Below are positions 16,516 through 35,917 of a stretch of 64,000 nt of DNA, piece by piece (the first letter of the stretch is position 1; each line of letters opens with the position of its first letter). Below the pieces are notes generated by a model. The model made no database searches and was not told the origin of the DNA. It saw only the letters and a list, made by a program, of their open reading frames with translations. Source of the DNA: Hyphomicrobiaceae bacterium (lineage in GTDB: Bacteria > Pseudomonadota > Alphaproteobacteria > Rhizobiales > Hyphomicrobiaceae); NCBI GenBank assembly GCA_022844275.1, contig JALHMB010000005.1, positions 248,001 to 312,000 on the forward strand, in the 5' to 3' direction. Made by a program: the position numbers and the translations under genes.

Positions 16516-16592
16516 CTAAAGCGTCGGACCTTCAATGCGACCCGTGCCTGAGCCGATCTCGAAGTCGCATTTAGGGTCCAAAAACGCTTTAG
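16516..16592. repeat. Nested palindromic element, pair I unit 1
   Basis: Outer arms CTAAAGCGT/ACGCTTTAG (9 bp), middle GGACC/GGTCC, inner AATGCGAC/GTCGCATT, loop 22 nt; total 77 bp. It is followed after 12 bases by unit 2. No T-run follows, so it is not an ordinary terminator. Confidence 0.75.
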
Positions 16593-16604
16593 ATTTTTAG
16601 CTCT

Positions 16605-16668
16605 CTAAACTCGAAATTCACTCCCGCCTGGCCGCGAACTGAGGTGAATTTCGAGTCCGTTGCTTTAG
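16605..16668. repeat. Nested palindromic element, pair I unit 2
   Basis: Outer arms CTAAA/TTTAG, inner perfect 13-bp arms ACTCGAAATTCAC (16609-16621) and GTGAATTTCGAGT (16644-16656), loop 22 nt. The right end runs into the stop codon (16665-16667) of the minus-strand gene that follows. Confidence 0.75.
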
Positions 16669-32765: not shown

Positions 32766-33638
32766 CTACCTTTTCAGCCGCGCCTTGAGCACACCGGGCA
32801 CCTCGTTCGGCGTCGCGCAAACGGTGACGCCGGCTTCCTCCAGTGCCGCCTTCTTGCCCGCATAAGACCCGCGGTTGCCCATCACGATTGCGCCCGCGTG
32901 CCCCATCTTCTTGCCGGGCGGCGAAGCGGCGCCAGCAATGAAGGCCGCAACCGGCTTCCTCATGGTCGCGGCGTAGTCCGCCGCCGCTTCCTCCATCGCA
33001 CCACCGATTTCGCCGACGAGCGCCACGGCTTTCGTCGCCGGGTCCTTGTCGAGCGCAACGAGCGCATCGCGCGTCGTCGTACCGATGATCGGGTCGCCGC
33101 CGATACCGATGAATGATGAAATGCCGAGCCCCGCCTGCACGAGGTTGAGGCAGAGCAGCGTGCCAAGCGAGCCCGAACGCGAGATCACGCCGATATCGCC
33201 CTTCTGGAAGACACGTGCATTGAAGGCCGGCATGAAACCGACGAAGTTCACGCCGGTCGTCACGAGCCCGGCTGTGTTCGGTCCGATCACCTGAGCGCCG
33301 CGCTCGCGCGCCGCCGCGAGAAAGTACATGGTGTCCTGCACGGGCACATGCTCGGTGAGGCAAACGATCTTTCGGACGCCCGCCGCGATGATATCGAGCG
33401 CGGCTTCCTTCACGCCGAACGGCGGTACGAACATCACGGCCGCATCGATCTTCTGATCCTTCGCTGCATCCTGCGCCGAGGCCCACACGGGCAGATGGAG
33501 ATGCCGCTCGCCGGCGCGGCGCGGATTGACGCCGCCGATGACCTTCGTGCCGTAGTCGCGCATGCGCTCCGACCAGAACGTGCCCTGCTTGCCCGTGATC
33601 CCCTGCACGAGCACAGTTTCGTTGCCGCCGATGATCAT
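32766..33638 (-). CDS. Succinyl-CoA/malyl-CoA ligase-like alpha subunit
   Basis: The 290-residue protein has the SucD layout: CoA-binding Rossmann domain ([21 protein letters not shown]), IGPNTAGLV, the phospho-carrying His in [10 protein letters not shown]. It is cut slightly short and lower in similarity than the TCA-cycle SucD, so it may act on another dicarboxylate such as malate. It overlaps its partner by ATGA. Confidence 0.82.
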
Positions 33639-34768
33639 GCGCTCGCCCCCTTTGCCGCGGCGACGGCCACCTTCACGGCATCGTCCATGAGATCGTAAGG
33701 CTCGATGCCGAGGCGGTCGCGCACCATGGCGATCGCCTCGTCCTCACCCGTGCCGTGGATCGTGAACACAATCGGGATCTTCGGCTTGAGATGGAGCCAG
33801 GCATTTATCACGCCCTCGGCCATGACGTCCGTGCGCGCGAAGGCGCCACAGAAGTTGACGAGCAGCGCCTTCACATTCGGGTTCGCGAGAACGATCTCCA
33901 ACGCCGGCACGGCCTTCGTGTAGCTGTCGCCGCCGATCTCCATGAAATTCGCGGGCCTCCCGCCGAAATGACGGATCGCGTCCATGGTTGTCATGGTGAG
34001 GCCGGCGCCGTTCGCGAGCACACCGACTCCGCCATCAAGCTCGATGTACTTGAGGTGCAGCGCCTTGGCGCGCGCTTCGAGGTCCGTCGTCTTGTCGGGC
34101 GTGCCCGTCGAAGCCAGCATCTCCTGGCGGGGGAGTGCGCTGTCATCGATGGTCAGCTTGCAATCGAGTGCCACGAAATGTCCGTCGCGCATCTGCACGA
34201 GCGGGTTGATCTCGATGAGTTCGGCATCACTGGCGCGATAGGCCTCGTAGAGCTTGACGAGAATGTCCGTGATGGCGCTCGCGGCGGGCGGATCGTAGCG
34301 ACGCACGGCAGCTGCCAAAGCCTCTTCATCGAGGCCCTTGGTGATGTCGACCGCGATCTGCAGCAGCGCATCGGGATGCTCGGCGGCGATATCTTCGATG
34401 TCCATGCCGCCTTCGGGCGAGAACAGCAGCAGCGGTCCCTCAGTCTCGGGATCGTTCAGCACGGCGGCGTACATCTCGCGCGCGATGTTTACTTGGCGGT
34501 CCACCAGGAGGTGATCGACCTGATGCTCGCCGATGGTCATGCCGAGGATCGCGCGGGCGTGGCCGGCGGCCTCATCCGGTGTCGTGGCGAGCTTGATGCC
34601 GCCCGCCTTGCCGCGCTTGCCGGTCGGCACCTGGGCCTTGATCACGCACTTGCCGATGCGGCGTGCAGCCTCCGCGGCTTCCTCTGGCGTTCGGGCGACG
34701 ATGCCTTCGGGCGTCGGAATGCCGGCTGCGCGCAGAACGGCCTTTCCGGCGTGCTCAGTAAAATTCAT
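33635..34768 (-). CDS. Succinyl-CoA/malyl-CoA ligase-like beta subunit (ATP-grasp)
   Basis: The 377-residue protein has the beta-subunit plan: MNFTEHAGKAVLRAAGIPTP, the ATP-grasp part with GKRGKAGGIKL, EINPLVQMRDG and the C-terminal GVGVLANGAGLTMTTMDAIRHFGG. Blocks around them differ clearly from housekeeping SucC and MtkA. The ATG at 34768 opens the conserved domain. With the alpha subunit it forms an acyl-CoA ligase whose acid is undetermined; nucleotide preference cannot be read. Confidence 0.82.
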   Translation of the reverse strand: MNFTEHAGKAVLRAAGIPTPEGIVARTPEEAAEAARRIGKCVIKAQVPTGKRGKAGGIKLATTPDEAAGHARAILGMTIGEHQVDHLLVDRQVNIAREMYAAVLNDPETEGPLLLFSPEGGMDIEDIAAEHPDALLQIAVDITKGLDEEALAAAVRRYDPPAASAITDILVKLYEAYRASDAELIEINPLVQMRDGHFVALDCKLTIDDSALPRQEMLASTGTPDKTTDLEARAKALHLKYIELDGGVGVLANGAGLTMTTMDAIRHFGGRPANFMEIGGDSYTKAVPALEIVLANPNVKALLVNFCGAFARTDVMAEGVINAWLHLKPKIPIVFTIHGTGEDEAIAMVRDRLGIEPYDLMDDAVKVAVAAAKGASA

Positions 34769-34801: not shown

Positions 34802-34877
34802 CTAGTGTGATGATCGAGAAATTCGCCAGCCCTCGCAGCGCCGGATGGAGCGAATTTCTCGATCTGAATCACACTAG
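34802..34877. repeat. Nested palindromic element, pair II unit 1
   Basis: Outer arms CTAGTGTGAT (34802-34811)/ATCACACTAG (34868-34877), inner perfect 14-bp arms ATCGAGAAATTCGC (34813-34826)/GCGAATTTCTCGAT (34850-34863), loop 23 nt. Total 76 bp. Confidence 0.85.
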
Positions 34878-34890
34878 AGAATTTGTGCTT

Positions 34891-34967
34891 CTAGTGTCCC
34901 TTGGATTTCGAAGTTCGCTCGCGAGGCCGGCATTGAGGTCAAGCGAACTTCGAAATCGGGACACTAG
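34891..34967. repeat. Nested palindromic element, pair II unit 2
   Basis: Outer arms CTAGTGTCCC (34891-34900)/GGGACACTAG (34958-34967), inner perfect 15-bp arms ATTTCGAAGTTCGCT (34905-34919)/AGCGAACTTCGAAAT (34942-34956), loop 22 nt. Total 77 bp, 13 bases after unit 1. The pair fills the gap between the CoA-ligase beta gene and the polyprenyl synthase. Confidence 0.85.
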
Positions 34968-35017: not shown

Positions 35018-35917
35018 TCAGCCGCGCCGGTTGCTGACGAAGTCTATGGCCGCCGTCAGATTGCGTGCTTCAGCGCCAAACGTTGCGAGCGCTGCACGTG
35101 CTTCAGCATTGAGTTCTGCAAGACGCGCGCGTGCGCCTGCGACGCCGAGCACGGTGACGAACGTTGCCTTGCCAGCCGCAGCATCCTTGCCGACGGCCTT
35201 GCCGGTCGCCTGCGCATCGCCCTCGGCATCGAGGAGATCGTCGGCAATCTGGAAGGCGGCGCCGAGCGCCTCCCCGTAGGCGCAAAGTGCGTGGCGCTGC
35301 TCGGGGGCTGCACTGGCAAGAATGGCACCGGCTTCGGCCGAGAAGCGGATCAGCGCGCCGGTCTTCATGCGTTGGATGGTCGTCACGCCTGCGAGCGAGT
35401 GCAGGTTCGAAGCGCCTTTTTCGGAAGCGAGATCCAGCACCTGACCACCGACCATGCCGCCGCCGCCGCTCGCTTCGGCAAGACCGAGGACCAGGGATGC
35501 CCGCACGGCTGCATCTGGATGAGTGGCAGGGCGCGCCAACAGCTCGAAGGCGAAGGTCAGGAGCCCGTCGCCAGCGAGAATGCCGGTTGCCTCGTCGAAG
35601 GCTTTCCAGACGGTCGGCTGGCCGCGACGCAACTCGTCGTTGTCCATGGCCGGGAGATCGTCGTGGACGAGCGAATAGCAGTGCAGGCACTCGATCGCAC
35701 ACGCCGCATCGAGGGCCGCCGCATCCGAGAGCCCCAGCACACGCGCACCTTCAATGGCCAGAAACGGCCGGAAGCGCTTGCCGCTGCCCAGCACGGCATG
35801 ACGCATGGCGGCGCCCAGAACGGGCGGCGTCGCGCCGAGCGCGCTTTCGCCAAGCAGCTCGGCGAGGCGGTTCTCCACAAGCGCCGCGACCTCGCCCAGC
35901 CGTTCCTCGAACGCCAT
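35018..35917 (-). CDS. ispA: Polyprenyl synthetase (farnesyl/geranylgeranyl diphosphate synthase type)
   Basis: The 299-residue protein has the first Asp-rich motif DDLPAMD with upstream LGSGKRFRP, and the second DDLLD. It condenses isopentenyl diphosphate with allylic diphosphates, most likely making farnesyl diphosphate for quinones, undecaprenol or hopanoids. The usual xseB or dxs neighbours are not present. Confidence 0.93.
   Translation of the reverse strand: MAFEERLGEVAALVENRLAELLGESALGATPPVLGAAMRHAVLGSGKRFRPFLAIEGARVLGLSDAAALDAACAIECLHCYSLVHDDLPAMDNDELRRGQPTVWKAFDEATGILAGDGLLTFAFELLARPATHPDAAVRASLVLGLAEASGGGGMVGGQVLDLASEKGASNLHSLAGVTTIQRMKTGALIRFSAEAGAILASAAPEQRHALCAYGEALGAAFQIADDLLDAEGDAQATGKAVGKDAAAGKATFVTVLGVAGARARLAELNAEARAALATFGAEARNLTAAIDFVSNRRG

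Follow-up and report, generated by a model that had tools for sequence, protein, structure and literature searches.

REP sequences, REPINs, and BIMEs are interspersed bulged palindromes that often occur as inverted pairs in intergenic DNA and feature a foot tetranucleotide (sections of PMC8266576 and PMC3733652). IS200/IS605 elements use guide tetranucleotides to choose their cleavage sites (sections of PMC8266576), and both these elements and the PATEs have palindromes near their ends, a short oligonucleotide target, and no target duplication (sections of PMC8266576 and PMC3119063). The SMRs of Haloquadratum are ~80–110 bp long and feature inverted ends, no target duplication, and a mobiliser that is not known according to the part of PMC3119063 devoted to them. 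RIME1 and other rhizobial intergenic mosaic elements number dozens per rhizobial genome (sections of PMC2573895). Br-REP1 and Br-REP2 are intergenic palindromic repeats of Bradyrhizobium and Rhodopseudomonas, and Br-REP1 belongs to a three-palindrome group (sections of PMC5082802). ERIC, Correia/NEMIS, and RUP are short non-coding mobile elements with long stem-loops (sections of PMC10969869 and PMC2229807), for which a table in PMC2229807 gives TA ends and target duplications. A twin-hairpin element of the kind reported here is not described in the open-access literature searched, which included sections of PMC2873474 and PMC12306157.

The stretch of DNA analysed here, the window, comprises 64,000 nucleotides of the 6.08 Mb genome of a Hyphomicrobiaceae bacterium (G000), which has four congeners in the data set (G001–G004). 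Pair II occupies positions 34802–34967 on the forward strand and is ~166 bp long, consisting of a 76 nt hairpin (unit A, 34802–34877), a 13 nt A+T-rich spacer (34878–34890), and a 77 nt hairpin (unit B, 34891–34967). The spacer is also ~13 nt long in other copies and its letters drift. Unit A features outer arms of 10 bp (34802–34811/34868–34877), inner arms of 15 bp (34812–34826/34850–34864), a loop of 23 nt, and a 3 nt bulge on the right strand, on the spacer side (34865–34867). Unit B features outer arms of 10 bp (34891–34900/34958–34967), inner arms of 16 bp (34904–34919/34942–34957), a loop of 22 nt, and a 3 nt bulge on the left strand, also on the spacer side (34901–34903), which is 4 nt in most other copies. 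The unit positions, the 13 nt gap, and the loop lengths are as given in the original prediction, however, the inner arms had been put at 14 and 15 bp. The units had also been described as head-to-tail; they are in fact inverted mirror images of each other, since the outer arms are unbroken and the bulge of each unit is on the spacer side. These outer arms resemble terminal inverted repeats. The CTAGTGT noted earlier in the outer arms is not accidental: CTAGTGT-N50–70-ACACTAG matches twice in the window, with 0.00 matches expected from 100 dinucleotide shuffles, none of which matched. Folding of pair II as single-stranded DNA yields −52.5 kcal/mol (z = −9.6), a value equalled by 0 of 200 shuffles.

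The pair II family is like the REPs and REPINs in that it consists of bulged hairpins arranged as inverted dimers. However, the foot tag of REPs and REPINs is GTAG/CGTC, whereas the feet here are CTAG in the pair II family and CTAA/TTAG in the family of pair I, and REP units are 20–40 bp long, compared with stems of ~25 bp and loops of ~22 nt here. Pair II resembles a MITE in being ~166 bp long and non-coding, with outer arms that by eye are like terminal inverted repeats; the family differs from the MITEs in having neither TA ends nor a target duplication, and searches for IS481 and IS110 found no parent IS. RIME1 is ~108 bp long and has two large palindromes. It is intergenic, as is pair II, and differs from it in size; the two may be related. 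The consensus of Br-REP1 and Br-REP2 printed in the sections of PMC5082802 on these repeats was not found by eye within pair II. The SMRs differ in being archaeal, and a double-hairpin architecture is not described for them in the part of PMC3119063 cited above.

A genome-wide search revealed many further copies, which bears out the original suggestion that pair II is a mobile or functional dimeric unit and not chance. Similarity to pair II was detected throughout G000 (best 40 of 88 candidates), the pattern CTAGTGT-N40–70-ACACTAG has 59 matches in this genome versus 2 for a reversed control, and the A arm with up to 3 mismatches has 49 matches versus 0 for its control. From these, 48 complete A–B pairs were collected, comprising 47 of 164–168 bp (28 of them 167 bp), a set that leaves out L125, L126, and L131, and L130, which was added later. 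The CTAG feet, the bulges, the length of the spacer, and the order A–spacer–B recur across the copies, and the mean identity among them is 92% in the arms, 64% in the loops, and 57% in the spacers. The maximum pairwise identity of any two G000 copies is ~91%, which gives no sign of a very recent jump. L126 is half an element and represents a truncated remnant, and a degenerate copy at C5:413389 is a remnant common to G000 and G003. No autonomous copy was seen, and none is offered by L126 or by loci L217–L243, which were fetched with an IS481 model.

The window contains one other pair of this kind, pair I, which lies at about 16516–16668 on the reverse strand and was matched at 58.6 bits by a covariance model, R1, that had only pair II copies as input. 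Pair I is a degenerate copy of family I, which features CTAAAGC/GCTTTAG feet and has at least 14 other matches in G000 that span most of the query (13 with E < 1e-20; best 40 of 46 candidates). R1 picks up members of this family with E down to 9e-24. Pair I is not a copy of pair II but belongs to another sequence family that has the pair II architecture; the geometry that the two pairs had been said to share is upheld by the similar architecture and the R1 match, but not an identity between them, as pair I is degenerate and of different sequence. All eight tandem hairpin pairs detected in 800 kb (two genomes, one long-hairpin scan) fall in families I and II. Mobility of single units was not indicated, as unit matches outside pairs scored at most 26 bits in 800 kb.

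Pair II is absent at the window locus in all four congeners, and G002 keeps a CTAG there. About 0.6 Mb of G000 is collinear with G003, and 13 of the 14 complete family II copies of that region (7 in G000 and 7 in G003, leaving out the degenerate C5:413389 and a 103 nt fragment at G003 C3:934978) face an element-free site in the other genome. The 14th copy (C5:414749) faces 1.1 kb of other DNA that contains no element according to the model, and three of the 13 element-free sites (G003 C3:679611, 793222, and 821946) are less clean, with a differing length in the other genome. The cleanest sites, such as G000 C5:162028, 348407, and 483814 and G003 C3:942986, are collinear when one tetranucleotide is kept, and the net gain is 162 bp at G000 C5:162028 and 348407. 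With site 821946 left out as unreadable, the 12 empty tetranucleotides are GGCG, CTAG, CTGC, CTTG, AAGA (ambiguous), CTAG, TCAG, TTAG, CTGG, CTGA, CCGA, and CTAG. By a hand tally, 29 of their 48 letters agree with CTAG, compared with ~12 expected from base composition, in alignments that included the element's own foot and lean slightly toward it; GGCG, AAGA, and CCGA fit poorly. Adjacent complete copies in G068 (L255) and in G011 (C2:894925–895253) overlap by exactly one CTAG, the arrangement that insertion of one copy into the other's foot would produce.

Insertion sites are seldom shared between species. Of 37 loci of G001–G004, only L157 of G002 occupies a site that is also filled among 50 G000 loci, by the damaged copy L125, and some sharing may be missed because 20 of the 37 have only ~110 bp of flank per side. 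L125 is without part of unit A. In this sole clean shared copy, the B hairpin including its loop is nearly identical in the two genomes, despite strong drift in the non-coding DNA beside it; this single case may point to host selection on the site, or to some other process. Another locus seems to be shared by G003 (L275) and G000 (L089), yet the copies lie at different points of one intergenic gap. This gap has taken three insertions at different points in two species, which suggests that some gaps are favoured. The copy at G003:C3:793222–793388 sits inside the loop of a terminator-like hairpin (TTGGGACCGT...ACGGTCCCAA), and G000 has a similar hairpin without the element.

The element inserts beside a CTAG-like tetranucleotide without target duplication. 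In pair II both the left (A-side) foot at 34802–34805 and the right (B-side) foot at 34964–34967 are CTAG. Among 95 copies from several genomes (the distinct rows of 96), CTAG is found at the left foot in 66, at the inner foot of A in 66, at the inner foot of B in 90, and at the right foot in 89, and a deviating foot is more frequent on the left (29/95) than on the right (6/95, p = 2e-5). The 29 left feet that deviate never equal the right foot of the same copy. In 17 of them the left foot and the inner foot of A (34874–34877 in pair II) are fully complementary, compared with a mean of 1.5 and a maximum of 7 in 5000 shuffles; this covariation is partly inherited within subfamilies, as 8 of the 17 are CTCG/CGAG. 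Duplication of the flanks was not detected in 47 copies, with 3 matches versus 4.6 expected at 2 bp, 0 versus 1.0 at 3 bp, and 1 versus 0.4 at 4 bp. The ends of family I, CTAA...TTAG, are inverted and not direct. At nine sites with unlike left and right feet (family I site 930520 was left out as unreadable), a hand tally found the empty site to be closer to the right foot in six, tied in two, and worse in one. The B-side foot is therefore the better candidate for the retained target, and this comparison of sequences is suggestive of such a role without proving it.

This mode of insertion resembles that of IS200/IS605 elements and PATEs, which also insert beside a tetranucleotide without duplication (seen here at 12 sites, three of which fit poorly), and the covariation of the left and inner A feet might reflect a guide. 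The pair II family differs from these elements in that its hairpins fill the whole element, its ends are alike, and no Y1 transposase is found in the five genomes of the genus. Its foot geometry differs from that of IS608.

The results on the feet bear on the alternative that pair II is a conventional MITE, mobilised in trans by an IS481-like DDE transposase, with the outer arms as terminal inverted repeats, a duplicated 4 bp CTAG, and palindromes that are incidental. The outer arms of A and B are alike within each family by eye, the ends read TGT...ACA within CTAG, the empty sites have one CTAG-like tetranucleotide, and IS481 presumably targets CTAG. G000 also contains 14 sub-cut-off matches to the IS481 model, the best with E 9e-59. 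However, none of the five genomes searched has an IS481 match above the cut-off, and no match whatever was obtained in G002 and G011, both rich in elements. Loci L217–L243, identified with the IS481 model, contain no match to pair II. The inverted ends of family I, the absence of left feet that equal right feet among the 29 non-CTAG cases, and the greater decay of the left foot do not fit a direct duplication, and the hairpins are kept whole although a DDE transposase would not need them. A conventional MITE is an unlikely explanation.

Other candidate movers were searched with protein models. Y1_Tnp (PF01797), the family to which the transposase of REPs and REPINs (TnpA_REP, RAYT) belongs, was found in 0 of 5 genus genomes and in 5 of the 36 genomes searched, and of these five G007 and G013 carry elements. 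Y2_Tnp (PF04986), the family of the IS91 transposase, was absent from G000–G003, gave one match in G004, and was found in 5 of 24 genomes searched. IS110 was not found in G001, G002, G011, and G018, and has 5 matches in G000. Y1 (RAYT/REPIN), Y2 (IS91), IS481, and IS110 each lack a match in two or more of the element-rich genomes, which for Y1 and Y2 include others beyond the genus, and were rejected as movers; since G000 has matches to both IS481 and IS110, these two are excluded as general movers only. The element does not classify as a REP, an IS91 element, or a classical MITE, yet it works much like REPINs and derivatives of IS200/IS605.

The reading that we favour, and regard as probable, is that pair II arose by insertion of a twin-hairpin mobile element that is non-coding and non-autonomous and is moved as single-stranded DNA by means of its hairpins. 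Transposition through single-stranded hairpins is the most likely kind of movement because the features of the element resemble those of REPs and of the ends of IS200/IS605. An enzyme supplied in trans would recognise both folded hairpins as single-stranded DNA, cut at the CTAG feet, and join the element beside a CTAG target. The foot of each hairpin may serve both as a cleavage site and as a guide, as in IS200/IS605 ends and REP sequences. The element would have landed between the ispA and CoA-ligase genes, and any effect on their expression would be secondary.

The stems show strong covariation. Locus L185 was left out of one alignment, A2. In 71 copies, 34 of 51 stem pairs have changed on both sides, compared with a shuffled mean of 5.6, and 96.9% of cells are paired, compared with 26–41% when the strands are slid. 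Selection at the RNA level would favour G-U pairs. Mismatches counted over 50 pairs (the last of the 51 being left out) comprise 39 G-T and 41 A-C, and 17 versus 21 on the transcribed strand. Because the stems covary without a G-U preference on the transcribed strand, pairing appears to be kept at the level of DNA and not RNA; RNA-level selection on the stems is not supported, as the G-U and A-C mismatches are balanced.

Template-switch correction of quasi-palindromes could contribute to the stem pairing, and it might be the whole cause of the covariation, in an otherwise ordinary element and without selection. The equal frequency of G-T and A-C mismatches is consistent with such a process, as are double changes that are found in single copies only. 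Correction alone does not ensure that the arms hold a family consensus (identity 0.92 versus 0.64 in the loops), however, and the positions of the bulges are kept, which makes template switching quite unlikely as a full account.

Pair II lies between two genes on the reverse strand. The downstream gene (33635–34768), which to judge from its protein sequence probably encodes a succinyl/malate-CoA ligase beta subunit-like protein, is taken to start at the second ATG of its listed open reading frame. The upstream gene (35018–35917), presumably an ispA-like polyprenyl synthase gene on the strength of the earlier annotation, has relatives whose records carry no gene names. The A end of pair II is 33 bp upstream of the probable CoA-ligase start, and an apparent ribosome-binding site of this gene, GGGAGG, is left in place. 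By crude gene calls, 34 of 48 copies lie between co-directional genes, 10 between divergent genes, and 1 between convergent genes, and 3 are unassigned. Convergent gaps are under-used, with 1 of 45 copies (leaving out three without a called neighbour on one side) versus 26 of 171 non-coding CTAGs of contig C5 (p = 0.01). In 13 copies the foot forms the TAG stop codon of a neighbouring gene; this is not clearly above expectation (p = 0.09), since 30 of 172 CTAGs outside gene interiors on C5 are stop codons. Both C5 counts include CTAGs within elements. Among G000 copies, 12 of the 31 start codons that face the B end are no more than 7 nt away from it, compared with 0 of the 24 that face the A end (p = 0.0005). 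The B end reads GGGACACTAG toward the gene, a sequence that might supply a ribosome-binding site. Of 47 G003 copies, 34 are oriented in line with the local GC skew (p = 0.003); the 47 are taken from 49 copies found by similarity or the model, which are not all copies, with 2 zero-skew copies omitted from this nearest-sample count. The p value is 0.08 in a 2 × 2 test and ranges from 0.002 to 0.34 when the thresholds and the smoothing are varied. These values are suggestive of a weak replication-strand bias of orientation. The sign of the GC skew switches at ~865 kb of G003:C3 (~430 kb of G000:C5), as it does at a replication origin or terminus.

This setting could also be explained by a host-functional intergenic RNA, for example a terminator, an mRNA stabiliser, or an RNase III site, that regulates the neighbouring genes. 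The strong hairpins (folded here as DNA), the excess of starts near the B end, and the near-identical shared copy L157/L125 are consistent with this role. It is opposed by the missing G-U preference on the transcribed strand, by the avoidance of convergent gaps, and by sites that mostly differ between species. In Rfam, only a tRNA in the window is above the gathering threshold, and 12 element matches are sub-threshold (best E 0.022). A host RNA is improbable as the explanation of pair II.

A chromosome-organising role has been proposed for BIMEs. A chromosome-organising or protein-binding DNA site spread by recombination and not by transposition would fit palindromic DNA in many dispersed intergenic copies, however, it is very improbable given gains of exactly one element with exact ends beside a tetranucleotide, and given stems whose sequence varies widely between families while the shape is kept.

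Elements akin to pair II are found in scattered members of the class, the Alphaproteobacteria. DNA similarity was detected in at least 16 of 60 relatives, including all five genus genomes (G000 among them), and among these 60 no match was obtained outside the family, with up to 13 candidates scored per genome. R1 matched at least 56 of 103 family genomes, in at least 20 of 25 genera, and at least 20 of 385 class genomes (G000 included); these are lower bounds, as strict filters were applied and up to 27 (family) or 7 (class) candidates were taken per genome. Plasmid and phage collections gave no match. In distant members of the class the stem sequence differs widely and the fold is alike. At 33 loci aligned with R1, the arms are as little as 49% identical to those of the window copy, pairing is still seen in 1626 of 1681 cells, and both sides have changed in 47 of 51 pairs, in an alignment that leans toward the model to which it was fitted.

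The constant geometry together with widely varying stems suggests recognition by shape. A bolder and tentative proposal is a class-wide non-autonomous twin-hairpin system that is mobilised as folded single-stranded DNA, with a foot that encodes the tetranucleotide (CTAG or TTAG) and an enzyme that is not Y1, Y2, IS481, or IS110, and may be a housekeeping or undescribed nuclease. If an undescribed enzyme moves these elements, it would add a new activity to those that mobilise bacterial DNA; with CTAG versus TTAG as the foot code, target choice can be tested directly. The elements mark insertion differences between species and often adjoin the start or stop codons of operon genes. Additionally, three loci (L364, L368, and L369, from G182, G453, and G400) feature the same feet and twin stems with loops of a few nt and a total length of ~117–131 nt.
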